The translations under genes were made by a program, and so were the position numbers. A model generated the notes under the pieces. The model worked only from the letters and a program-made list of their open reading frames with translations, ran no database searches and was not told the DNA's origin. 23,112 bases of DNA from a virus, in the IMG/VR virus record IMGVR_UViG_3300048922_000351, positions 1 through 23,112 of that record. The stretch is one strand, 5' to 3'. Numbering within the stretch: position 1 is the first letter of the stretch; each line of letters starts with the position of its first letter. Below are positions 3,224-15,436 of this stretch, one piece after another.

Positions 3224-4081
3224 TCACGATGTCGAAACGGGCAGGAGAAGGATTTTCAGCGACAGGCGCACCGATCCGCCGGTGAACGAGCCGCTGGTCG
3301 CCGTGACGATCAGATTGGTCGCGGAATAGCAGCCATAGGGGCCGACGATTCCGAAATTGGTCGAGCCCGACGCGACATTGAGCGCGCCGCCGAATTGGGT
3401 TGGGGTTCCCGAGACGCCGACGCCGAAGGACGGCGCGCCCGTCACGGACGATAGAACGCGCGTCCCGACGCCAAGCACGATGCAATTCGTGGGGATCGGC
3501 GTCGCGGCCGTGGTCGAGGCGCCCGAAAGCGTTACGGTCTGCTCGATGACCTGGAACTGGATCGCCGCGCCATTGGCGCCCTGCGCGACCTGTTGCAGCG
3601 CGCTCGCGCCGAGCGCCTGGTCGATGACGGTCCATTTGCCGGAGCCGTTGCTTTCAAGCGCCAGATAGCCGTAAGCCGTGGCGATCGAAGCCAAAGTCGC
3701 GCCGTCTATCGTGTCCGACCCGCTGCGCGCGATCGTCAGCGCATTGGTCGCCGAGCAATTGCCGCTTTCGTCGAAGATCGTCAGCGCCGTCCCGGTCGGA
3801 TAGGCCGAGGCCGGCGGGAGCGTGACGGCGCGCGCCGCCGTCAGCGCCGTATAGGCGACGCTTCGGTCGGTCGCGAGGACCGTATAGGCGGCGTCGGAAA
3901 CGGCCGTGCGGCCGTTCGTGATGACTTCGGAAAGCCTCGCCGCAGCAAAGCCCCCGGCGGTCGCGCCGTCGTGTACCGTGACGCGATTATTCGTCGTGTC
4001 GACGATCAACTCGCCCTGGGCGCCCACATAGGCGGCGACCGTCGCCGCCACGTCGCGGCGCCGTTTGACTTGAACGGACAT
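3224..4081 (-). CDS. Tail fibre protein with Mtd-like N-terminal domain
   Basis: The 285-aa product starts MSVQVKRRR and contains the phrase GELIVDTTNNRVTVHDGATA at about residues 23-42. That phrase is characteristic of the small N-terminal domain of major tropism determinant and many phage fibres, which anchors the fibre to the tail. The middle (residues 60-150) holds repetitive strands such as TALTAARAVTLPPASAYP and ALTIFDESGNCSATNALTI, a common trimeric fibre repeat type. The C-terminal 120 residues form a Gly/Thr-rich domain ending SLKILLLPVSTS, probably the receptor-facing tip. AGGA lies 8 bases before the ATG. The gene sits directly behind the J-like tip protein, the usual place for a fibre. 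The receptor is unknown. Confidence 0.78.
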   Translation of the reverse strand: MSVQVKRRRDVAATVAAYVGAQGELIVDTTNNRVTVHDGATAGGFAAARLSEVITNGRTAVSDAAYTVLATDRSVAYTALTAARAVTLPPASAYPTGTALTIFDESGNCSATNALTIARSGSDTIDGATLASIATAYGYLALESNGSGKWTVIDQALGASALQQVAQGANGAAIQFQVIEQTVTLSGASTTAATPIPTNCIVLGVGTRVLSSVTGAPSFGVGVSGTPTQFGGALNVASGSTNFGIVGPYGCYSATNLIVTATSGSFTGGSVRLSLKILLLPVSTS

Positions 4082-4094
4082 GCGTTGATTCCTG

Positions 4095-6215
4095 TTAGGA
4101 GGTCAGATTGCCGAGGTCGATGATCGAGACGACCGGCGCCGCCACGGTCCCGAAATCGTCGTTTTCAGAAACGGCCTGGCTTGCGAGGCCGTAATCCATC
4201 GCGGTCCCGACCGCTAAAGTCGTGGCGACGGGGCCGAGAACGCCTGTCCCCTGAATCCGGTAAGGATAGGCTGTACAGGTCGAAATATCCTGCGTCGCGC
4301 CGCCGAAGATGTTGACGCTCTGGAATTTCAGATAAATCGTCTGGCCGATGTTGGCGTTCGGGACGTCAGATTTCAGGATCGCGGAATCAAGCAGGCAGAA
4401 GCCCGCGCCAATCGCATGGAAGCCGGGCGTCGAGCCGTTCAATCCGCGGTAAAGGCCGGTCAAATTATATTTGCTCGTCGCCGTGAGCGTCGCTGTCGTG
4501 TAGGCGAGATATTCGCCATCGACATAGCAGAGCGTGACGCCGGCCGCCGCGCTGGCGCTGTTCGTCGATTGCAGCGTTCCACCGCTTTCCGTCAGATCGG
4601 CCGCGAGCGTGTCGGTCGAATCCGGGTTCGATCCACCATAGGCCGCGAGCGAGGCCGAGAGGACGCCCTGGCGCGCCGGAACGGCGATTGACGACACCTC
4701 CGCATAGCTCGTCCCGTCAAGCGAGGCCCAGACGATGCAGCCCCCCCAATTCGGGTCTGCGCTTTGCGCGCTGGCGCCGATCCACAACTGCGTGACGCCG
4801 CCCGAAAGAGAGGGAGGCGGCTCGATAATGAGCGGCGTGTTGACCGAATTTGGCGTCACATCCGCGGCCGGGACGCCATTGCTTTTGGCCTGGACCGGAT
4901 AGGCGACGGCGGTCGCCACGCCCTGCGGGAATTCCTCGGCCGTGACCGAGAGCGCCCCATCATCGGCTTCCTCAATGTCCGTGATCCGGACGACGGTCGC
5001 GTTCAGCCCGAGCAGCGGATCGGTCAGGCTGACCAAATCCATCGGATCGAGCAGGCAGAATTCAGCCGAAAGCCGGAACTCGTATGTGTTCCGGATATAA
5101 AGCCCGCGCTGCAAGATCAATTGCGCGACTCTTTGCCCGACCGCGATGTCGCAAATTTCATGCGCCGTGACGGTCGAGGCGGCGCGCAAGCCGAAGCGGT
5201 CGATCGCCGACTGGTCGAAAGCGGTGATCGGCCCGGTGTTGTAGGAATCGCTCCGGGCCTGGATTTCGACGCTCTGCTGGTTATAGCCGGCGTAGGGGTC
5301 CGACCGCGCGATCTTGATCGGGTCTTCGCCTTCCGAGTGGAGGAAATCCTCATCCGTCAGGGCATAGCGAACCGTCAGGTCCGGCGTCCAGGTCTTGCCG
5401 CTCGCCGTGATCGCGCTGTCGCCGAGGGGAAGGAATTTGAGCACGCCGCCCGACCAGACCACCGTCGAATTGGTGAGCTGTAGCCAACGCGAGAGGATCG
5501 ACGAAGCCGATTCCTTCGTGTTCAGGACCGGGCTGAACGCAATCCCCGCCGTCCAGCAATAGGTCTGGTAGGACGAGTCCGCGGCGTTGGCAAAGAGCGA
5601 GGTCGCGTCGATCGAAGCGGCGGGGAAGCCGACGCCATATTGCGAATTGGTCAGGAAATCATAGATCACCTGGGCCGGGTCGCAATCGAGCGCGTTGACG
5701 CCCGAGCCGGATAGAAAGCCGCAGACCTCGAAATTATTGTCGCCGACGCTCGCCGACGCCCCAAGGTCGTAAAACGGATTGCAGACATAGGCGACGCCTG
5801 GATAGCCCAAGGCTTCCGAGGGATAGTAGGCGGAGGCCCACGCCCACGGCGCTTGCGGCGTCGTTCCGGTGAACTGGCTCAAGCCGAGCGCCGCCAGATT
5901 TGTCGGCGTCGTCGATGACGTCCAGATGTTCCCGATTTCAAGAATCGGGCCTTCGCATAGCGCCATGATGATCGCGCAGCGATAATCATAGCCCGTCGCC
6001 TGTTTGCTGCTTCCGCCGCCACCTTTGCCGCCGCCCTTGCCGCCGGAATATTGCGGCAGGGCGAGGAAATGATTGTACCAGATGACATTCGGCGACAGGA
6101 TATTGCGGCCCCAGGCGATCGGGACGGGGATGGCGCTCGAAGTCGACTGGATTTGCAGGCCGGAATATTTGGTGATCTGGGTCGCCGTGGCGTTGCCCGA
6201 GCGCAGAATGCCCAT
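4095..6215 (-). CDS. Tail tip attachment protein, Phage-tail_3 / lambda J-like (C-terminal half of GTA gp15)
   Basis: This 706-aa protein matches the part of GTA gp15 and lambda J-like proteins that forms the central tip. The N-terminus has the typical IPVPIAWGRN strand, a flexible Gly/Lys loop (residues 58-71, GGKGGGKGGGGSS) and then GYDYRCAIIMALCEGPI at 75-91, a hallmark of these hub proteins. The Phage-tail_3 region follows (about 200-450: SASSILSRWLQLTNS, VVWSGGVLKFLP, RNTYEFRLSAEFCLLDPMDLV, VVRITDIEEADDGALSVTAEEF). Residues after 470 are fibronectin-like beta domains. The gene begins inside the stop of the NlpC/P60 gene (TGATG). In contrast to RcGTA gp15, there is no TIM barrel here; that domain is in a separate upstream gene. 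Expected role: receptor contact and closing the tail tube. Confidence 0.9.
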   Translation of the reverse strand: MGILRSGNATATQITKYSGLQIQSTSSAIPVPIAWGRNILSPNVIWYNHFLALPQYSGGKGGGKGGGGSSKQATGYDYRCAIIMALCEGPILEIGNIWTSSTTPTNLAALGLSQFTGTTPQAPWAWASAYYPSEALGYPGVAYVCNPFYDLGASASVGDNNFEVCGFLSGSGVNALDCDPAQVIYDFLTNSQYGVGFPAASIDATSLFANAADSSYQTYCWTAGIAFSPVLNTKESASSILSRWLQLTNSTVVWSGGVLKFLPLGDSAITASGKTWTPDLTVRYALTDEDFLHSEGEDPIKIARSDPYAGYNQQSVEIQARSDSYNTGPITAFDQSAIDRFGLRAASTVTAHEICDIAVGQRVAQLILQRGLYIRNTYEFRLSAEFCLLDPMDLVSLTDPLLGLNATVVRITDIEEADDGALSVTAEEFPQGVATAVAYPVQAKSNGVPAADVTPNSVNTPLIIEPPPSLSGGVTQLWIGASAQSADPNWGGCIVWASLDGTSYAEVSSIAVPARQGVLSASLAAYGGSNPDSTDTLAADLTESGGTLQSTNSASAAAGVTLCYVDGEYLAYTTATLTATSKYNLTGLYRGLNGSTPGFHAIGAGFCLLDSAILKSDVPNANIGQTIYLKFQSVNIFGGATQDISTCTAYPYRIQGTGVLGPVATTLAVGTAMDYGLASQAVSENDDFGTVAAPVVSIIDLGNLTS

Positions 6216-6700
6216 CAGCCCGACACCTTTTTCGCCCAGATCGAGAAGAAACGCAGCCGGCGCTTGGGATCGGTCAGAAGCGGGTTTTGCGTCAGCCCTT
6301 CCTCGATGACAGCGCGAGCGTCATGCGAGGCGTGGACAATGCGAACCGGATCGGCCTCGACCACGATTCCGCCATGCGAATAGGTCCTGCCATAGCGGAA
6401 CAGAGCAATGTCGCCGACGCCTGGCGCATCGACTGGCGCGCAGCGTTCCTCGAAGAAGGCCAGATATTTTTCTTCGTCCCGGTGAAGCATCCAGTCAGGC
6501 GCATATGGGCGCGGATCGAACGGCTCGACCATGCCGGAGTCGACAAAAACCCGGACAATCAACATGCCGCAATCGACGCCCGAGCCCAAAACGTCGGCGC
6601 AGTTGTGATAGGGCGTGGCGATCCATTTGCGCGCCTCGGCGACGACACGATTTCTCTCGTCGGACTGGCTCTGTGCGCCCTCGGTTTGAACGATAGCCAT
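6215..6700 (-). CDS. NlpC/P60 cell-wall peptidase of the tail tip (GTA gp14-like)
   Basis: The 161-aa product has the NlpC/P60 arrangement: catalytic Cys44 in GSGVDCGMLIVRVF, His109 in YSHGGIVV and a third polar residue, His123, in RIVHASH. The helix before Cys44 (VAEARKWIATPYHNCADVLG) is also typical of the phage version. In RcGTA and related siphophages this protein sits at the tail tip and cuts peptidoglycan peptides during DNA entry. Position fits: it lies between DUF2163 and Phage-tail_3, joined to both by TAATG and TGATG overlaps. There is no signal peptide, as expected for a virion part. All three likely catalytic residues are present, so it should be active. Confidence 0.92.
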   Translation of the reverse strand: MAIVQTEGAQSQSDERNRVVAEARKWIATPYHNCADVLGSGVDCGMLIVRVFVDSGMVEPFDPRPYAPDWMLHRDEEKYLAFFEERCAPVDAPGVGDIALFRYGRTYSHGGIVVEADPVRIVHASHDARAVIEEGLTQNPLLTDPKRRLRFFSIWAKKVSG

Positions 6701-7623
6701 TATTTCCCCCTTCCGCTCGTGGTGGTGGACGAAAGCGGGCCGGTCATGATCTGCGGCGGCGGGACATAGGGAAATCCCTTGAAATTATTCAGATTGTTGA
6801 ACTTGCTGCTGCAAGTTCCCTTGGTATGGTCGCAGCCCTGCGCCACCGTAAAGGCGTCGCCGATGCTTGGCGCGGTCGACAGCGGATAGGCGAGCAGCAG
6901 CCAGCCGGAGCCGGCCGCCTTGATCGTCGCTTCGACGCCCGTGTTGGCGCCGGACGTGAACGTGATCGTCCCTTGCTGATAGGCGGAGGTCGCCGAGCCC
7001 CAGGCGATCTGCGTCCGGTCGGAACCCGCCGCGACGGCGCCCGACGCCGAATAGGTTCCGCGCGCCAGGCCGCAGCCCGAGCCGTAAAGGACATGGACGC
7101 AATTCGACTGGTAGCAGTTGCGCGGCATGTCGATGTCGAGCAGCGTCAAATCCGACGCCACCGTGACTTTGGCGGTGGTGCGCCCGATTTCGTCGATCTG
7201 CCCGACGCGGCCCTTGAACAGCACGACCGTTCCGATCGGGATGAGGTTCCCGCCAGAGGTCGTCCAGGACGAGAAGAACGCCCGCTCGCGCTGAATAAAG
7301 GCGCCGTCGAGAAGTCCTTGCTGCAAAGCTTGAAGGAACGGGACGCCGCCAATCGTGTCCGTCGCGCGCGCGGCGATAACGATTTGCTGCTTGTCGACAT
7401 TGGGACCGCATGAGGCCTTGTATTTAAGGCCGGCGATCAGGACGGAATTCGCCAGATAGGTCCGCCCGTTCCAGAAGGCGGGCGTATCGACGCCGCAATA
7501 GGTCAGGATCGTCCCGCTCGCCAGCGTGATCGTGAACAGATCCGCCATGTAAAGCGGCGCGTCGCCATTCGCGGTGCGCAGGCCGTTGAGATAGGTCAGG
7601 AGCGCGCCCGTTGTGGTTTTCAT
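6700..7623 (-). CDS. DUF2163 tail hub protein (GTA gp13-like)
   Basis: The 307-aa product starts at the ATG at 7623, which overlaps the TGA of the DUF2460 gene (ATGA); the longer open frame reaching 7800 runs over that gene and is not used. Family marks are the N-terminal MADLFTITLASGTILTYCG (residues 26-44), the GRVGQIDEIGRTTAKVTV strand pair, the Cys-rich PRNCYQSNCVHVLYGSGCG, and the C-terminal QGCDHTKGTCSSKFNNLNNF followed by KGFPYVPP. These correspond to the DUF2163 and adjoining C-terminal phage domain (BR0599-type) found in GTA gp13. The conserved cysteines may bind an iron-sulfur cluster or metal in the hub, as discussed for related tail hubs; that is inference here. It should form the baseplate hub between the distal tail ring and the tip. 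Confidence 0.9.
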   Translation of the reverse strand: MKTTTGALLTYLNGLRTANGDAPLYMADLFTITLASGTILTYCGVDTPAFWNGRTYLANSVLIAGLKYKASCGPNVDKQQIVIAARATDTIGGVPFLQALQQGLLDGAFIQRERAFFSSWTTSGGNLIPIGTVVLFKGRVGQIDEIGRTTAKVTVASDLTLLDIDMPRNCYQSNCVHVLYGSGCGLARGTYSASGAVAAGSDRTQIAWGSATSAYQQGTITFTSGANTGVEATIKAAGSGWLLLAYPLSTAPSIGDAFTVAQGCDHTKGTCSSKFNNLNNFKGFPYVPPPQIMTGPLSSTTTSGRGK

Positions 7624-8222
7624 CGAACCTGCCTGAATTTGACGCTCTTGTTGCTCCAAAGCCCGGACATGAAATTCTCGAAATCCATCTGATCGTCGAG
7701 GAACCGGCACTGGAAGGCATAGGAGACATTCGCGACGATCGCCGCGCCATTGGCCGGCGCAGTCGTGAAGGTGATCGTGTTGGGCGCGCTCAGGGTCCAC
7801 GCCCCTGTCGAGACGCCGGCGACCGTGACCCCCGAAACCGCGACCGCATAGCTGACCGGCTCGGCAAAGCCGCCGATCGAGCGAACAAGCGTGAAGCTGG
7901 TCGTCGCGCCGTCGCCGGTCGCAATGGCCTGGCCGCTGACCACATTGTCGGTCGGATCGACATAGAGGAAGGCGTTCAACTGGCCGCCGAGGCTAAGGAA
8001 GAACCCCATTAATGTTTGCAGCGATTGGGATTGCAGGCCGGGAAACACGCCCGAGGAATCGAGCCCGTCAAAGGTCAGCTCGAATTCATAAAGCGCATGG
8101 GCGAAAAGACCGGCGCGGACCTCCCGGCCCGAGGAATGCGACGAAACCCGGGTCGAGAAGGTCGGCTTTTTGTGGACGCTCCACCCCTGTCCGGGCAGGG
8201 TCGGGAAGGTAGGGAGCGTCAT
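7620..8222 (-). CDS. DUF2460 distal tail protein (GTA gp12-like), stand-alone copy
   Basis: This 200-aa protein matches DUF2460: LPTFPTLPGQGWSVHKKPTF at the start, then SGREVRAGLFAHALYEFELTF, FFLSLGGQLNAFLYVDP, IATGDGATTSFTLVRSIGG, NTITFTTAPANGAAI, and the ending CRFLDDQMDFENFMSGLW. In GTA particles this family forms the distal tail ring between tube and hub. Its ATG overlaps the stop of the larger upstream gene (ATGA). The same domain occurs again as the last 199 residues of that upstream gene, and the two align along their whole length, so this is one of two tandem paralogues. This copy has the usual family length. Confidence 0.92.
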   Translation of the reverse strand: MTLPTFPTLPGQGWSVHKKPTFSTRVSSHSSGREVRAGLFAHALYEFELTFDGLDSSGVFPGLQSQSLQTLMGFFLSLGGQLNAFLYVDPTDNVVSGQAIATGDGATTSFTLVRSIGGFAEPVSYAVAVSGVTVAGVSTGAWTLSAPNTITFTTAPANGAAIVANVSYAFQCRFLDDQMDFENFMSGLWSNKSVKFRQVR

Positions 8223-10732
8223 CCTCGCACAGTCTCCAATTTCAGCGTTTTGGCAGCCCAGAAGCTCGCGACGAATTGCTCGAAGTCGAGATCGTCATCT
8301 ACAAAGCGCGCGACATGAGCGGCGGAAAAATCGATCGTCAGCGCGACGCCAGCAGCGGGCGCCGTGGTGAAGGTGATCGTCGCCGGCAGAATGGAAACCG
8401 AATAGAGCGATCCGGAAACCGCAACGCCATTGGCGTAAACAGTCGGCGGCCCGCTAAGCGCCTGGACGCGCTCGCTGTAGCCGCCAATCGCGCGCGAGAC
8501 GACAAAGGCCCTGGTCGAGCCGTCGCCAGTCCCGAGCGCCACGCCGAAAGCGACGCCAAGACCGCCAGGCGGCGCGAACAGGAAGGGCGTCGCCTGCCCC
8601 GCCTGCGCCAGCATGAAGGCGATCACAGTCTGCAATTCGGCATTGACCGCGTCCGAACGCAGGAAGTTGAAGGTCAGGTCAATGTCCCAAAGCGGCGAAG
8701 CCATCACGCCGGCCCGCGTCTCGCGCCCCGAAACCTTCGCCATCGACCTCGTCGAGAACCGCGGCGAATAATGCACGCTCCAACCCTCCCCGGTCAGCGC
8801 CGGGAAAATGGCGTAGGAGCCCGCGCCGGGCGGCGGGTCAGCCGCCGGAGCCTGAACATAAGGCCCCTTGCCGCCGATCCAGTTGCCGGCCGCCCAATTG
8901 CCGCCGTCACCCCATGCGCTGGTATTGAGCGGGAAGGTCGGGAATGGGCGCGCGTCCCAATTCCAGGCGCAGCAAAATGGCGTCAGGATCATCGGAACGC
9001 CCGAGGCCGAAGTCTCGTTCTTGCCGCCGGTCCAATAATCATAGATCGCCTGTAGTCCGAGCGCGGCGAGAAGGTCGTCTCGGCGCGGCAGGAAGCTCGC
9101 GCCATCGGCGGAATCCCACACGGCCCAGAACGGCGTGTCGCTCTCGGTCGATTTCGCGTCGAAAAAGACGTTCGGCTGATTGGTGCATCGGTCGACCGTG
9201 GCGAAGCCATATTCGACGAAAATCATCGGCTTGGATTTCGCCGCCCATTGCGTCGGCTGGCCGTGCGGCGCCCATCCGAGTCCGTCGCTGGCGTCATAGA
9301 TCGCCTGATGCGTATTCTTCCACCACCAACGGAATTGCTTGCGGCCGAGCAGCTGCTGGTTGGCGTAATAGGGGTTGCGCGCCTGACTGGCGCGGTCGCC
9401 TTCGGGCAGGCTGACATATTGCCCCGTCCCGAGCGGATCGAGCCCGCGCCCGAGATTGTTCGAATCGCCATAGTACCAATTGAAGCTCTCGCCGCCCTCA
9501 ATATTGGCCTGCAAATAAGCCTCGCTGTGCAGCATGGGCGTCCCGGAAAGGCCAAGGCCGCTCATCGCGCCCGAAGACGGCGGCCAGGAGGTCGGCGCGG
9601 CGCTGGTCCAGTTGAGCGGGTCAAGGCCGCCATCGCCCGTCGTCCAGTCCGACAGCGGCAGATAATTGTCGAATGAGACGAGGTCGATATTCGCCGAGGC
9701 GAACAGCCAGTCGAGATGCGGCCATTGCCCGTTCGCGCCGGAATACTGGACGCCGTTCCATGACGACCAGTCGGCCGAATAGGAGATCAGGTTTTTCCAC
9801 GTCGTCAGGTTCTTGCTCAGGCCCGCGCCGTCGAAGATGGAGCGCACATCGGCCGCAAGCTGGATCAGACCGGCGACAAAGGGATAATCCCAGACCGCAA
9901 AGCCGCCGCCGTCCGTCGTCCCCGCCTTGGTCCAGCCGGGACCACGGATCGCTTCGAGGCCACGCAATTCCGATCCGATCAGGAACAGATCGACGCCGCC
10001 CGCCACCACGCACAGATTGGCGTAATGCAGGATCATCCGGCGATAGCTGAAATCGGTCGGCGAACCGGAATAGGCCACCGTCAAATTGGTCGCGTCGCGC
10101 GTGAATTGCCCGGTCGAGGCTGACCCGAGAAAGGCGTTGACCGCCGCCGTCGCGGCGCTGCTTACGTCGCTTGAAACCCCGATCCGCCCGCGCCAGGGCT
10201 TGCCCGCGCAATCCATCAGGATGAAAGGATAGAAAACCACGCGAAGGCCGCGCGCCTTCAAATCCTGAATGCAGCGGACGACGCTTTGGTCCGAAGGCGT
10301 GCCGCCATAGGAAAAGCTGCCGCCCGTCTGCGAAATCGGGATCAGGCCCGTCGAGGCCTGCGTCAGTCCCGAGCATTGCCAGTTCGCCACGGTCCAGGCC
10401 GAGCCCGTCCAAGACGTAAACGCGCCCTTGATGTAGGTCGTGGATGGATAAATCTGGCACGAGGCCGCGTCGGTCGAATTGCCGAACCATGCGACGACGA
10501 GGGCGACCGTCTGGCATTCCGGGTGCGCCGCCTGCAACTGATCGATCGCATAGGAATAGTCGGTCTTCGTCCCGCCCGGCGCGTAAAAGCAATTGACCGG
10601 CGCCAATGTTTCGAGCGCGCCGGTCCCGAAGGTTCCCCCGGTCGGGTTCCAGCGCGCGCCCTGCGCCGGGAGAGCGTCATAGGCGAATTCGCCGGTCGCG
10701 GGGAGAAGGCAGACGCCAAAAACCTGTGCCAA
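8219..10732 (-). CDS. GTA TIM-barrel-like domain fused to a DUF2460 domain
   Basis: The 837-aa product has two recognisable parts. Residues about 70-600 match the GTA_TIM domain of GTA gp15: QTVALVVAWFGNS, GGTPSDQSVVRCIQDLKARG, VVFYPFILMD then PWRGRIG, FLIGSELRGLEAIRG, ISYSADWSSW, VSFDNYLPLSDW, and MIFVEYGFATVDRCTNQPNV. A Pro-rich linker (about 621-638, APAADPPPGAG) leads to residues 639-837, a complete DUF2460 domain (EGWSVHYSPRFSTR, SGRETRAGVMASPLWDIDLTF, DLDFEQFVASFW). The frame begins with TTG at 10732, four bases after the tape measure stop; no ATG or GTG fits without losing conserved sequence. In RcGTA the TIM barrel is part of gp15, not joined to the distal tail domain. The barrel may act on cell-wall or surface glycans; activity is unproven. 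Confidence 0.9.
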   Translation of the reverse strand: MAQVFGVCLLPATGEFAYDALPAQGARWNPTGGTFGTGALETLAPVNCFYAPGGTKTDYSYAIDQLQAAHPECQTVALVVAWFGNSTDAASCQIYPSTTYIKGAFTSWTGSAWTVANWQCSGLTQASTGLIPISQTGGSFSYGGTPSDQSVVRCIQDLKARGLRVVFYPFILMDCAGKPWRGRIGVSSDVSSAATAAVNAFLGSASTGQFTRDATNLTVAYSGSPTDFSYRRMILHYANLCVVAGGVDLFLIGSELRGLEAIRGPGWTKAGTTDGGGFAVWDYPFVAGLIQLAADVRSIFDGAGLSKNLTTWKNLISYSADWSSWNGVQYSGANGQWPHLDWLFASANIDLVSFDNYLPLSDWTTGDGGLDPLNWTSAAPTSWPPSSGAMSGLGLSGTPMLHSEAYLQANIEGGESFNWYYGDSNNLGRGLDPLGTGQYVSLPEGDRASQARNPYYANQQLLGRKQFRWWWKNTHQAIYDASDGLGWAPHGQPTQWAAKSKPMIFVEYGFATVDRCTNQPNVFFDAKSTESDTPFWAVWDSADGASFLPRRDDLLAALGLQAIYDYWTGGKNETSASGVPMILTPFCCAWNWDARPFPTFPLNTSAWGDGGNWAAGNWIGGKGPYVQAPAADPPPGAGSYAIFPALTGEGWSVHYSPRFSTRSMAKVSGRETRAGVMASPLWDIDLTFNFLRSDAVNAELQTVIAFMLAQAGQATPFLFAPPGGLGVAFGVALGTGDGSTRAFVVSRAIGGYSERVQALSGPPTVYANGVAVSGSLYSVSILPATITFTTAPAAGVALTIDFSAAHVARFVDDDLDFEQFVASFWAAKTLKLETVRG

Positions 10733-10735
10733 ATC

Positions 10736-12013
10736 TTACGCCCCCGCAAGCCGTCGAAGCCCCAGATGGTTGCCGTCCGCGACGGCCTGATTGATCGCCT
10801 TCATGATCTGGCGCGAATTGCCGCCGAGCCAGCTCTTGACCGAGCCCGCATCGAGCGCGCTGACGTTCAGATGAACGCTCGCGCCGGCGGCTGGCGTCGG
10901 CCCGCCCGAACTGCCGCCCTTGGTCGCGCCGGACAGCATGGAGCGGAACGCCCCCGCCTCTGCCGCCGGCATGACCAGTTCGTTGCGATGGACCATCGCC
11001 AGCTGATCTTGCGGGATCGACCAGGCGCCAATGTCGAAAGCCGCGACGGACATCACCGCGCCCTGCGCCGCCGCCGCAGGCCCCGCCGCAGCAGGCCCCA
11101 TCACGGGCGCCAGAAAACCGAACACCCCCGCAAATGTCTCGGAGGCAGAAACCGTTATGCTTTTCAGTACGGAGCCCAGGATAGACGCCTGACCGGCCGC
11201 GGCTTCGCCAGCGACTATCCCGCTACGCGACGCGGCGCCAGCGGCGGCGGCGGCCGTCTTCTGGCCTTCGCCGGCTGCCGACAAAGCCGCGAGCGCCAGT
11301 TGCCGCTTGCCCCAATCCGCCACGACGCCGACGCCCATGCGGACGAACTGCGACACCACCGACTGGGCCAATGAAGACAGCGCCTGATTCAGCGTGCGCG
11401 TCCCCATAGCCATGCCCGTCAAGCCGGACGAAAAGGAGGACGCCATGGAGTCGATCACATGGTCCATCGGCGCGACCATTTGCCCGACTGACTGCAGCAT
11501 GATCTTCTGGCTGTCGAGCGCATATCGCGCATCGAGCGCGAGCTTCCGGTTCTCAATTTGCTCCCGCTGCCGGATGCTCAGGTCGCCAAGCTGCCCCTCT
11601 TTTTGGAGCAGCGACCTTTCCGCCGCATATTCCTCGTTCAAGGCGGCCTGGGAGGCAGAAAGCCGTTCGCCCGCGCTCATGACCTTCAATTTGGTCAGTT
11701 CGTCATAGAGCGATTTCTTTTCCGCAAGCGCCGCGCGCTCAGCGAAAATCTGGCGATTGATCGCCCCGAGGCTCTCCCGGGCGCCATCCTCCTGAGCGGC
11801 GCTCGCCATCCGCGCGGCGTCGCCGATCCCGGACAAGGCGTTAGCCGCGCCGGCGCCGAAGGCGGCAAAACTCCGCGTCGATTTGTCAACGCCGATCCCC
11901 ACCTGGCCGACATCGCCGGGCAGCGTCTGCAAGGCGGCCGAAACACGCGCGACGCCGTCGAGAAAGCCGGACGCATCTGCGCCGAAGGAAATTGAAACAT
12001 TGGATTCTGCCAT
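10736..12013 (-). CDS. Tail tape measure protein (short, GTA gp11-like)
   Basis: The chosen start is the ATG at 12013 (MAESNVSISFGADASGF) with GCGAGG just upstream; a GTG at 12031 would add only six residues. The 425-aa product has a long helical, charged region (about 70-175: AAQEDGARESLGAINRQI, QIENRKLALDARYALDSQK) followed by hydrophobic Ala/Gly/Met segments. Near the C-terminus it has FDIGAWSIPQDQLAMVHRNE then LVMPA, a motif typical of tape measure C-termini in alphaproteobacterial phages. It lies between the chaperone-like genes and the tip genes, as expected. Assuming about 0.15 nm per residue, the tail would be about 60 nm, near that of GTA and short-tailed siphophages. That length is inference. 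Confidence 0.85.
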   Translation of the reverse strand: MAESNVSISFGADASGFLDGVARVSAALQTLPGDVGQVGIGVDKSTRSFAAFGAGAANALSGIGDAARMASAAQEDGARESLGAINRQIFAERAALAEKKSLYDELTKLKVMSAGERLSASQAALNEEYAAERSLLQKEGQLGDLSIRQREQIENRKLALDARYALDSQKIMLQSVGQMVAPMDHVIDSMASSFSSGLTGMAMGTRTLNQALSSLAQSVVSQFVRMGVGVVADWGKRQLALAALSAAGEGQKTAAAAAGAASRSGIVAGEAAAGQASILGSVLKSITVSASETFAGVFGFLAPVMGPAAAGPAAAAQGAVMSVAAFDIGAWSIPQDQLAMVHRNELVMPAAEAGAFRSMLSGATKGGSSGGPTPAAGASVHLNVSALDAGSVKSWLGGNSRQIMKAINQAVADGNHLGLRRLAGA

Positions 12014-12046
12014 GCCATCCTCGCTTTTCACAGGACATTCGCGCTG

Positions 12047-12682: not shown

Positions 12683-13435
12683 TCAAACCGCCGTGTTGAT
12701 TTCGCCGATCGAATTCGCCGCATTGGCGAGGGCTTCGAAATCGAGCTCGGGAACGACAAAATCCTGCGTCTTCGAGGCGATGCTCAGCTTGTTCGAAACG
12801 CAATTGAAAAGCCGCAAGGACCATTGCGCGCCGGCGATATTGGGATTGGTCTGATAGAAATCGATCTGGAAGGTCGGCGCAGTCCCCATCGTCTTGTTGA
12901 CGATCAGCGCGCGCGATCCGCCGCTGGTCTGCGTATAGGAATAGGAGACCAGAACAGCCTTGCCGGCGTCGCCTGAGCTGAAGGTATAGACGCCAGCCGA
13001 GACGCTATATTGGCCAACGGCGGGAGCAGAGGAAACCCTGGTCAGCGCCAGGCCGCTCGCCGCATAGACCACGCCGAGGTCGCCGTCGAAATTGGCGGCG
13101 TTGGCCGTGGCGTAAGTATAGGGCGAGGAGGAAGGAACAGCGCCAGCCTCATTATAGGCCCACAGTTTCTGCCCGGCATTCAGCGTCTGGCCAAAGAAGC
13201 AGGCGTTGAACAAAGGCCCGTCGATATTGGCGAATTTCGCCTTGCCGGTGATCTTGCCTTCGCCCCGCGCCAGAGCGATGGGAAACTGATATTGCCCGAA
13301 CAATTGCTTTGACGAAAAACTGATGTCCAGTGTGACATCCTGCACGGCGCCAAATTGAACGGGCGTCGCATTGGCCCCCGAGGGCGTCGCGATCAGAACG
13401 CCAGAGCCGAAAGCGACGGAAGTTGTGTTGGACAT
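12683..13435 (-). CDS. Major tail tube protein with inserted beta module
   Basis: The 250-aa product has the features of a siphophage tail tube monomer: SGVLIATPSGANATPVQFGA, VQDVTLDISFSSKQLFGQYQ, then FPIALARGEGKITGKAKFAN at 51-70, and a C-terminal QWSLRLFNCVSNKLSIASKT. Between them lies a module at about 116-168 (GDLGVVYAASG, SAPAVGQYSVSAGVYTFSSG, DAGKAVLVSYSYT) that could be an insert displayed on the tube surface. A related module is present in the head-tail connector of this window. AGGAG lies nine bases before the ATG and includes the stop of the preceding small gene. High expression is expected since the tube needs many copies. Confidence 0.85.
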   Translation of the reverse strand: MSNTTSVAFGSGVLIATPSGANATPVQFGAVQDVTLDISFSSKQLFGQYQFPIALARGEGKITGKAKFANIDGPLFNACFFGQTLNAGQKLWAYNEAGAVPSSSPYTYATANAANFDGDLGVVYAASGLALTRVSSAPAVGQYSVSAGVYTFSSGDAGKAVLVSYSYTQTSGGSRALIVNKTMGTAPTFQIDFYQTNPNIAGAQWSLRLFNCVSNKLSIASKTQDFVVPELDFEALANAANSIGEINTAV

Positions 13436-14623: not shown

Positions 14624-15436
14624 TCAACTCGGGATGACGCGGGTGTAGTTGCGCAAGGCGACGGCGACATAATCGGGCACGGCCGAGATGCGGAACGCGG
14701 TCGTCTCCTGGCCGCCAAGGCTTTTCGACGTCATCGCGATGCGCTCGCGATAACGGTAACGGTCGGCCGCCCATTCCAGCGCGCAACTGGCCAGATCGGC
14801 GGGGACGTAGCCGTAATTCAGCAAAAGAGTCTGGCCGGCATCGGCGGTCGAGAAAAAATAGCCGTCGCCGCCGTCAAACGCATATTGCCCCTGCGCCGGA
14901 TTGGCCGCCACGCAGGCGAGCGGCTTACCGCTGGCGTAAGTGACGCCCGCATCGCAAGCGTATTCTCCGAAGGGCTGCGCGGCTTGTATCAGGAAGGATC
15001 CCGAGGCCGGCGCGACGAAGGCCTCGTTCGAGATCTGATATCCCGCGCGATAGGCGATTGTGATGTTTTGCCATCCACGTGAGAATGTCGCGCCGCGCAA
15101 CAGAATTTTCTGCATCGCGCCCGGCGGTTCGATATCGCCCGACTCCAGCGCCCATCCGACGCCCAGAGGCGTTTGCGCCTGCGGAATGTTCTGGCCATCG
15201 ATCGAGACCGAGGAGACTGAAATCACCGGCCAGTTTCGTAACTGGATCGACGCCCTGCCGTTGCCGTCGAAATGATCGGCGACATCGCGCGGCCAGACGA
15301 AGGGGCGGTTGATATAGGCGCAGATCGCGCGGCTGATCTGGCTAATCAGGCCGGCGAGCAGAATGTCGTCGCCACTCGATTGCACGCCGAGATGCGCCTT
15401 GAGCTGTGCCAGCGAAACGAGGTCGCCCTGCGCCAT
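14624..15436 (-). CDS. Head-tail connector protein (HK97 gp6-like) with inserted beta module
   Basis: The 270-aa product starts with the connector hallmark LVSLAQLKAHLGVQSSGDD (residues 6-24), then helix ISQISRAICAYINRPFVW, the strands ISVSSVSIDGQ and ITIAYRAGY (125-133), and the C-terminal VPADLASCALEWAADRYRYR (211-230). In ordinary gp6-like connectors the AYRAGY strand runs directly into VPADL. Here about 77 residues (134-210) are inserted, containing a module (CDAGVTYASG, GQYAFDGGDGYFFSTADAGQ, TLLLNYGY) related to one in the tail tube protein. It is longer than usual (about 190-200 aa) because of that insert. It should form the 12-fold ring under the portal. Confidence 0.85.
   Translation of the reverse strand: MAQGDLVSLAQLKAHLGVQSSGDDILLAGLISQISRAICAYINRPFVWPRDVADHFDGNGRASIQLRNWPVISVSSVSIDGQNIPQAQTPLGVGWALESGDIEPPGAMQKILLRGATFSRGWQNITIAYRAGYQISNEAFVAPASGSFLIQAAQPFGEYACDAGVTYASGKPLACVAANPAQGQYAFDGGDGYFFSTADAGQTLLLNYGYVPADLASCALEWAADRYRYRERIAMTSKSLGGQETTAFRISAVPDYVAVALRNYTRVIPS

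Follow-up and report, generated by a model that had tools for sequence, protein, structure and literature searches.

A GTA-type TIM barrel carried by an extra distal tail protein in phages of Hyphomicrobiales

Described tail tips and the tail-tip module of the window

In RcGTA and R4C, a TIM barrel forms part of the large tail-tip protein, the megatron (Rcc01698, encoded by g15, structures 6TBA/6TEH, in RcGTA; 8GTC in R4C), where it corresponds to the peripheral domain (residues 230-744 of the RcGTA protein; PMC7296036), whose function is still called unknown by a 2026 RcGTA preprint (PMC13420450). Both have a single gene for the distal tail protein (Dit; Rcc01695, encoded by g12, in RcGTA), which belongs to the DUF2460 family. 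Sugar-related domains on a distal tail protein have been reported from phages of Gram-positive hosts, in which the so-called evolved Dits carry CBMs inserted in the galectin-domain loops of the only Dit (PMC7291167, PMC10688798). In phage JBD30, gp49 combines two Dit-type beta-sandwich domains per unit with N-terminal extra domains and bridges the six-fold tube to the three-fold tip (PMC11445458).

We analyzed a stretch of 23,112 nucleotides (hereafter the window; IMG/VR virus record IMGVR_UViG_3300048922_000351), the minus strand of which encodes a siphophage tail-tip module composed of tape measure, an 837-aa fusion protein, Dit, hub, an NlpC/P60-like protein, megatron and fibre. The tape measure protein (10736-12031, assigned by a PHROG match) lies directly upstream of the fusion gene (8219-10732), which is a single 837-aa frame with zero internal stops. 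It is followed by a stand-alone distal tail protein of 200 aa (7620-8222; DUF2460, Pfam E 2.5e-41), a baseplate hub protein (6700-7623; Phage_phiJL001_Gp84_N and Phage_BR0599 by Pfam), a putative NlpC/P60-like tail peptidase (6215-6700; weak match at E 7e-4, below the Pfam cut-off, together with its position and a PHROG tail match), a 706-aa megatron (4095-6215) and a tail-fibre-like protein with an Mtd N-terminal domain (3224-4081; Mtd_N by Pfam). Gene transfer agents are defined by packaging of host DNA and a lack of replication genes; the window comes from a virus record, and a related Rhodoblastus locus has a terminase and an Mtd-type fibre. In the same module of the window, the C-terminal extension of the head-tail adaptor (14624-15436) resembles a phrog_8234 protein encoded downstream of it (12683-13435; 28% identity over 137 aa, E 2e-9), and this pair is another case of a domain common to two proteins.

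The initial annotation had placed the TIM barrel on a DUF2460 protein instead of the megatron, joined to a full distal-tail domain by a Pro-rich linker, and the domain searches agreed with this in every part. Within the one frame, PF13547 (GTA_TIM) is complete at residues 228-601 (E 3.6e-94, 315.9 bits vs. a cut-off of 27, profile positions 1-299 of 299) and PF09343 (DUF2460) is near-complete at residues 648-835 (E 2.4e-26, 92.9 bits vs. a cut-off of 30.4, profile positions 8-204 of 205). PHROG and PDB matches widened the extent of the barrel to residues 4-623, and with phmmer residues 6-623 aligned to residues 222-761 of the RcGTA megatron (E 3.8e-69); as these ends lie close to those published for the peripheral domain, the barrel is delimited in the same way as a structural domain already known. 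The protein can thus be divided into the barrel (residues 1-622, 8867-10732), the Pro-rich linker (residues about 623-642, 8807-8866), which reads ...PYVQAPAADPPPGAGSY..., is poorly conserved in the family alignment and has low pLDDT in the structure model, and the fused distal-tail domain (residues 643-837, 8222-8806). The profile of the fusion family matches both the RcGTA and the R4C Dit, and the DUF2460 family and fold are common to these, to the fused half and to the plain neighbour. The gene product is thus a distal tail protein that bears a TIM barrel.

As had also been noted, Phage-tail_3 stands alone in the 706-aa protein, four genes after the barrel gene (fusion, plain Dit, hub, NlpC/P60-like protein, then the 706-aa protein). 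The Pfam scan found Phage-tail_3 (E 2.7e-31) and Rcc01698_C (E 1.6e-13) in this protein, and no GTA_TIM. Its structure model aligned to the RcGTA megatron (6tba_8A) with 350 aa at 3.0 Å and a Z score of 24.5, and since these 350 aa are spread across RcGTA residues 65-984, the middle part, i.e., the peripheral domain, is missing. The model also aligned with the tip proteins of lambda (J), JBD30 and Chi. The window barrel is a full-length homologue of the peripheral domain of the RcGTA and R4C megatrons, and the 706-aa protein is homologous to their remainder, but what is one protein in RcGTA and R4C is found here as two, with the barrel on a Dit, and their single Dit gene contrasts with two in the window, one of them with an N-terminal barrel.

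Conservation of the fusion and history of its parts

A search for proteins with both GTA_TIM and DUF2460 in IMG/VR plus one genome per species yielded 109 loci (from IMG/VR and Hyphomicrobiales genomes, some of them near-duplicates), with identities to the window protein of 54 to 95% across the aligned set. The named hosts are all Hyphomicrobiales (Rhodoblastus, Methylocella, Methylovirgula, Beijerinckia, Methylobacterium, Xanthobacteraceae, and Methylocystaceae), and the fusion-bearing family consists of phages of soil bacteria. Rhodoblastus acidophilus DSM 137 and DSM 142 carry relatives (L035/L036). In an even sample the fusion is rare, the seed genome being the sole match among 397 Hyphomicrobiales genomes (strict profile search, E <= 1e-150), and none of the INPHARED phage records covered 80% of the fused protein. 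Far from being peculiar to one genome, the arrangement is carried by many related prophages. That a sequencing or assembly error erased a stop between two genes has a practically negligible probability, and this reading was rejected because the continuous frame is kept in more than 100 loci from independent assemblies and is intact in isolate genomes of Rhodoblastus, Methylocella, Beijerinckia, and Methylobacterium.

A plain second Dit lies downstream of the fusion in 107 of the 109 loci (the remaining two end at contig ends), with a median of 2 bases between the stop of the fused gene and this next Dit. All complete megatrons in fusion loci (67/67) are without TIM, and the 53 loci with TIM in the megatron have no fusion and at most one Dit each, the two architectures being mutually exclusive. 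The barrel is thus found on the Dit in 109 loci and on the megatron in 53, and since the former arrangement is common to many related prophages, this domain does get shifted from one tail-tip carrier to another, as the initial annotation had suggested. Both halves of the fusion are under purifying selection (pN/pS 0.11-0.26 for TIM, 0.21-0.36 for Dit), which is generally stronger on the Dit core than on the Dit insertion domain. The insertion domain has been lost from the fused Dit, and the core kept, in 8 to 10 loci, which suggests that a fused Dit can change more readily than an only Dit could. Methylobacterium brachiatum (G005; C49:53998-54909, C43:269820-270950) has a GTA-type megatron with TIM (in a frame of 1359 aa) and, at a different locus, a prophage with the barrel-Dit (in a frame of 772 aa), so both forms meet in one cell.

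The fused barrels form one clade apart from the megatron barrels (SH-aLRT 100; the sole extra member is a truncated contig) and the fused Dits also form one clade (support 100/97), i.e., the fusion has a single origin. In the megatron tree, for which the TIM segment was taken out of the alignment first, TIM-bearing and TIM-less groups are parted by a branch of 1.68 (SH-aLRT 100), and the window megatron falls in the TIM-less group together with those of Acinetobacter, Pseudomonas, and Brevundimonas phages, which branch outside it. The Dit tree has the same deep split, with window and GTA Dits on opposite sides of the long branch. The fused, the neighbouring and the Pseudomonas KT1 Dits group together (support 96/94), and a clade of fused and neighbour Dits alone is neither shown nor rejected (p-AU 0.38); a duplication inside the lineage is the likely source of the second Dit.

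These trees do not agree with the view that the domains of GTA gp15 were re-sorted here. As the window megatron belongs to a TIM-less family and the barrel is of the GTA type, the gp15 of this lineage was probably not split, such a splitting being disfavoured by the megatron tree. A true re-sorting would require that the ancestor's own megatron held the barrel, and that the segment moved within the genome to a duplicated Dit and was lost from the megatron. Both the mutual exclusion of the two architectures and the coincidence of the barrel ends with those of the peripheral domain would fit such a history, but we regard it as improbable, given that megatrons without TIM are also found in the outgroups Acinetobacter vB_AbaSI_5, Pseudomonas KT1 and Brevundimonas Polewnik; as these branch outside the fusion clade, the TIM-less form is the simpler ancestral state. 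For a GTA-type barrel on a tip module of the other type, capture is simpler than the splitting of its own gp15, and from the phylogenies it is more likely that the barrel was captured once by the extra Dit. The simplest reading is a capture and then a replacement of function, each tip having one type of barrel.

Probable catalysis of the barrel and its possible place in the tail tip

In structure comparisons, the AF2-modelled fusion (mean pLDDT 73, pTM 0.67) matched the R4C megatron with a Z score of 27.1 and GH113 beta-mannanases with one of 20.9 (282 residues, 3.2 Å), followed by lower matches to other clan-A hydrolases, among them PslG (Z 12.6). The Pfam GH113 profile scored above its cut-off (35.5 bits vs. 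27), over a short stretch only (residues 139-188, profile positions 49-96 of 289). Clan-A retaining glycosidases have glutamates at the ends of barrel strands 4 and 7. In the model, Glu255 (9968-9970) follows the strand at residues 249-254 and Glu507 (9212-9214) the strand at residues 503-505, which makes them the predicted acid/base at the end of strand 4 and the predicted nucleophile at the end of strand 7, respectively. Neither residue varies among the 103 fused and the 68 megatron barrels (171/171), between which groups the identity is only about 35%. The invariance of both glutamates suggests that the barrel is probably an enzyme of the clan-A glycoside hydrolase type, and the earlier label of a glycan-binding domain is probably an understatement in view of GH113 as the nearest fold.

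A catalytically dead or weak barrel would instead serve as a carbohydrate-binding domain, an adhesin on the Dit comparable to the CBMs of the evolved Dits. The RcGTA authors count tip domains as oligosaccharide-binding sites (PMC7296036), CBM-bearing evolved Dits are common (PMC7291167), and the literature searched contains no report of activity for any GTA_TIM. Nevertheless, we consider a purely binding role unlikely, as some loss of the glutamates would be expected at this divergence and the best structural matches are active GH113 mannanases.

The explanation that we favour, with moderate confidence, is that the window encodes an extra Dit that sits in the tip ring and, by means of its N-terminal GTA-type barrel, acts as a clan-A glycosidase on host surface polysaccharide. 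The Dit half would take its place in the ring joining the tail tube to the hub, either alternating with the plain Dit (3+3) or forming an extra ring above it, and the barrel, as a putative retaining glycosidase with Glu255 as acid/base and Glu507 as nucleophile, would cut or hold the polysaccharide as the phage makes its way to the outer membrane. The barrel-free megatron would retain its hub and fibre-binding roles. The C-terminal part of the AF2 model matches the R4C Dit (8gtc_G, E 6e-9, TM 0.63 by target) and also T5 pb9. The RcGTA Dit is a hexamer in which odd and even subunits differ in conformation and in which both termini and the long loops point to the baseplate (PMC7296036); with the N-terminus on that side, a barrel suspended from the linker would lie at the outer rim of the tip, facing the cell.

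The Dit half could also dock a detachable accessory loosely from outside the ring, as TspA does on RcGTA. The complete plain Dit that accompanies the fusion in 107/109 loci and the ability of the fused Dit to lose its insertion domain would be compatible with such an arrangement, which we nonetheless judge to be quite unlikely: purifying selection acts on the Dit core, which is conserved up to and including its Arg-containing C-terminal end, and the barrel-Dit gene lies between those for the tape measure and the plain Dit, with the hub gene next, in a type of gene cluster whose order usually mirrors the position in the tip (PMC7291167).

For a fused Dit within the ring, the number of barrels may be three or six; the initial annotation had pictured many copies around the tip instead of a place on the central trimer. 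One TspA spike of RcGTA simultaneously contacts a peripheral-domain loop of the megatron and the OB domain of the Dit (PMC13420450), so the barrel and the Dit insertion (OB) domain are close together in RcGTA, and the Dit of JBD30 is a trimer of double-Dits with two beta-sandwich domains each, i.e., a 3x2 ring (PMC11445458). From this double contact and the 3x2 ring, three barrels near the old position appear as likely as six. A barrel on every second Dit N-terminus could keep near-RcGTA place and number (three), and as the plain Dit is always kept, a ring of three barrel-Dits and three plain Dits is as plausible as one of six barrel-Dits; six barrels in a separate ring are possible too. JBD30 gp49 differs from the window in having both Dit domains in one chain and in its N-terminal domains, which are not described as a TIM barrel. 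Duplication of the Dit offers a simple way in which a tube of six-fold symmetry could be joined to a three-fold tip.

Several plain neighbour Dits have an extra inserted domain, with two DUF2460 stretches (L024:3148-4407, L155:7764-8795, L033, L047, L125, L133, L161, and L170).

Additions to the Dit N-terminus and other carriers of the barrel

The domains of the fusion all come from known families, and sugar-related additions to a Dit were already known in phages of Gram-positive hosts (PMC7291167). The barrel-Dit parallels these evolved Dits in phages of Gram-negative hosts, but it is built in another way: where CBMs lie in the galectin-domain loops of the only Dit, the phages of Alphaproteobacteria analyzed here have a hydrolase-like barrel N-terminal to a complete extra Dit. 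A published TIM barrel on DUF2460 was not found in the literature searched (coverage was incomplete, with most subscription journals outside its scope), nor was a description of the barrel-Dit combination and the carrier swap.

A second kind of barrel-Dit was found among 398 evenly drawn Pseudomonadota genomes, 88 of which have DUF2460, 12 of these with DUF2460 at the end of a 740-950 aa frame. In the one long Dit that was scanned, PF23844 (NCTSP_N) and PF23845 (TIM-barrel_NCTSP) precede DUF2460, and all 12 align throughout to it at 50-61% identity. These two NCTSP domains are the N-terminal domain and the TIM barrel of a non-contractile tail sheath protein. The proteins (L205-L216, e.g., L205:6518-8899 and L207:7770-10115, both on the minus strand) fall in phrog_6040, and the scanned one is about 780 aa long. 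As in the window, the TIM barrel is N-terminal to DUF2460 and a TIM-less megatron follows downstream (12/12 loci), but the barrel belongs to another family and the Dit is single and of the GTA type, the Dits and megatrons of all 12 loci being placed on the GTA side of both trees. GTA_TIM, searched for directly, was absent from these 12 genomes, and in a profile comparison between the GTA_TIM fusion and the NCTSP proteins only the DUF2460 halves aligned. By these sequence comparisons, the NCTSP barrel-Dit is best described as an independent fusion with a different barrel family.

The strict swap of carriers and the second, independent barrel case show that phages of Gram-negative hosts have a socket for surface-polymer tools in the Dit N-terminus, and it looks like a general one. 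Phage tips can plug the same tool into different tip parts, and with the barrel on another protein, cut at exact borders, one can express, mutate or delete it and leave the central tip protein intact. Our wider proposal is a tentative one, and we would not be surprised to see it fail: each tip of an alphaproteobacterial phage or GTA would carry a glycosidase-like TIM barrel of exactly one kind, with the megatron and the Dit N-terminus as interchangeable sockets, a state reached independently with two unrelated barrel families, and in the lineage of the window the Dit duplication would have led to a 3+3 ring that keeps three barrels at about their RcGTA place.

Other domains also precede DUF2460. 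A 642-aa protein (L217:5821-7746, plus strand) has two F5/8 type C (galactose-binding-like) domains ahead of it, and the Brevundimonas phages Polewnik and Strzyga (L172:5164-7614 and L177:5164-7614) have an 816-aa Dit with an N-terminal Gly-rich ALK/LTK-like domain, in a module without TIM. In Acinetobacter phages (L173:5929-7755, L175:6436-8589, and L176:5914-7668), an interchangeable enzyme-like gene (SASA esterase-like, GDSL lipase-like or BNR sialidase-like) lies between hub and peptidase, and the megatrons are TIM-less.

GTA_TIM itself was also seen in other settings. Six loci (L184, L185, L186, L187, L188, and L192) have a divided GTA-type megatron, in which the N-terminal part and TIM make up one frame of 800-930 aa and the central part, where seen, is in the next frame. 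A solitary 734-aa GTA_TIM gene (L182:6208-8409, L183) has neither Dit or megatron parts nor recognised tail-tip genes nearby, and further solitary frames occur in G037 (758 aa) and G197 (734 aa). In the Xanthomonas jumbo phage LucasX (L197:5296-11361), GTA_TIM is part of a protein of ~2020 aa, encoded far from tail-tip genes of this kind.
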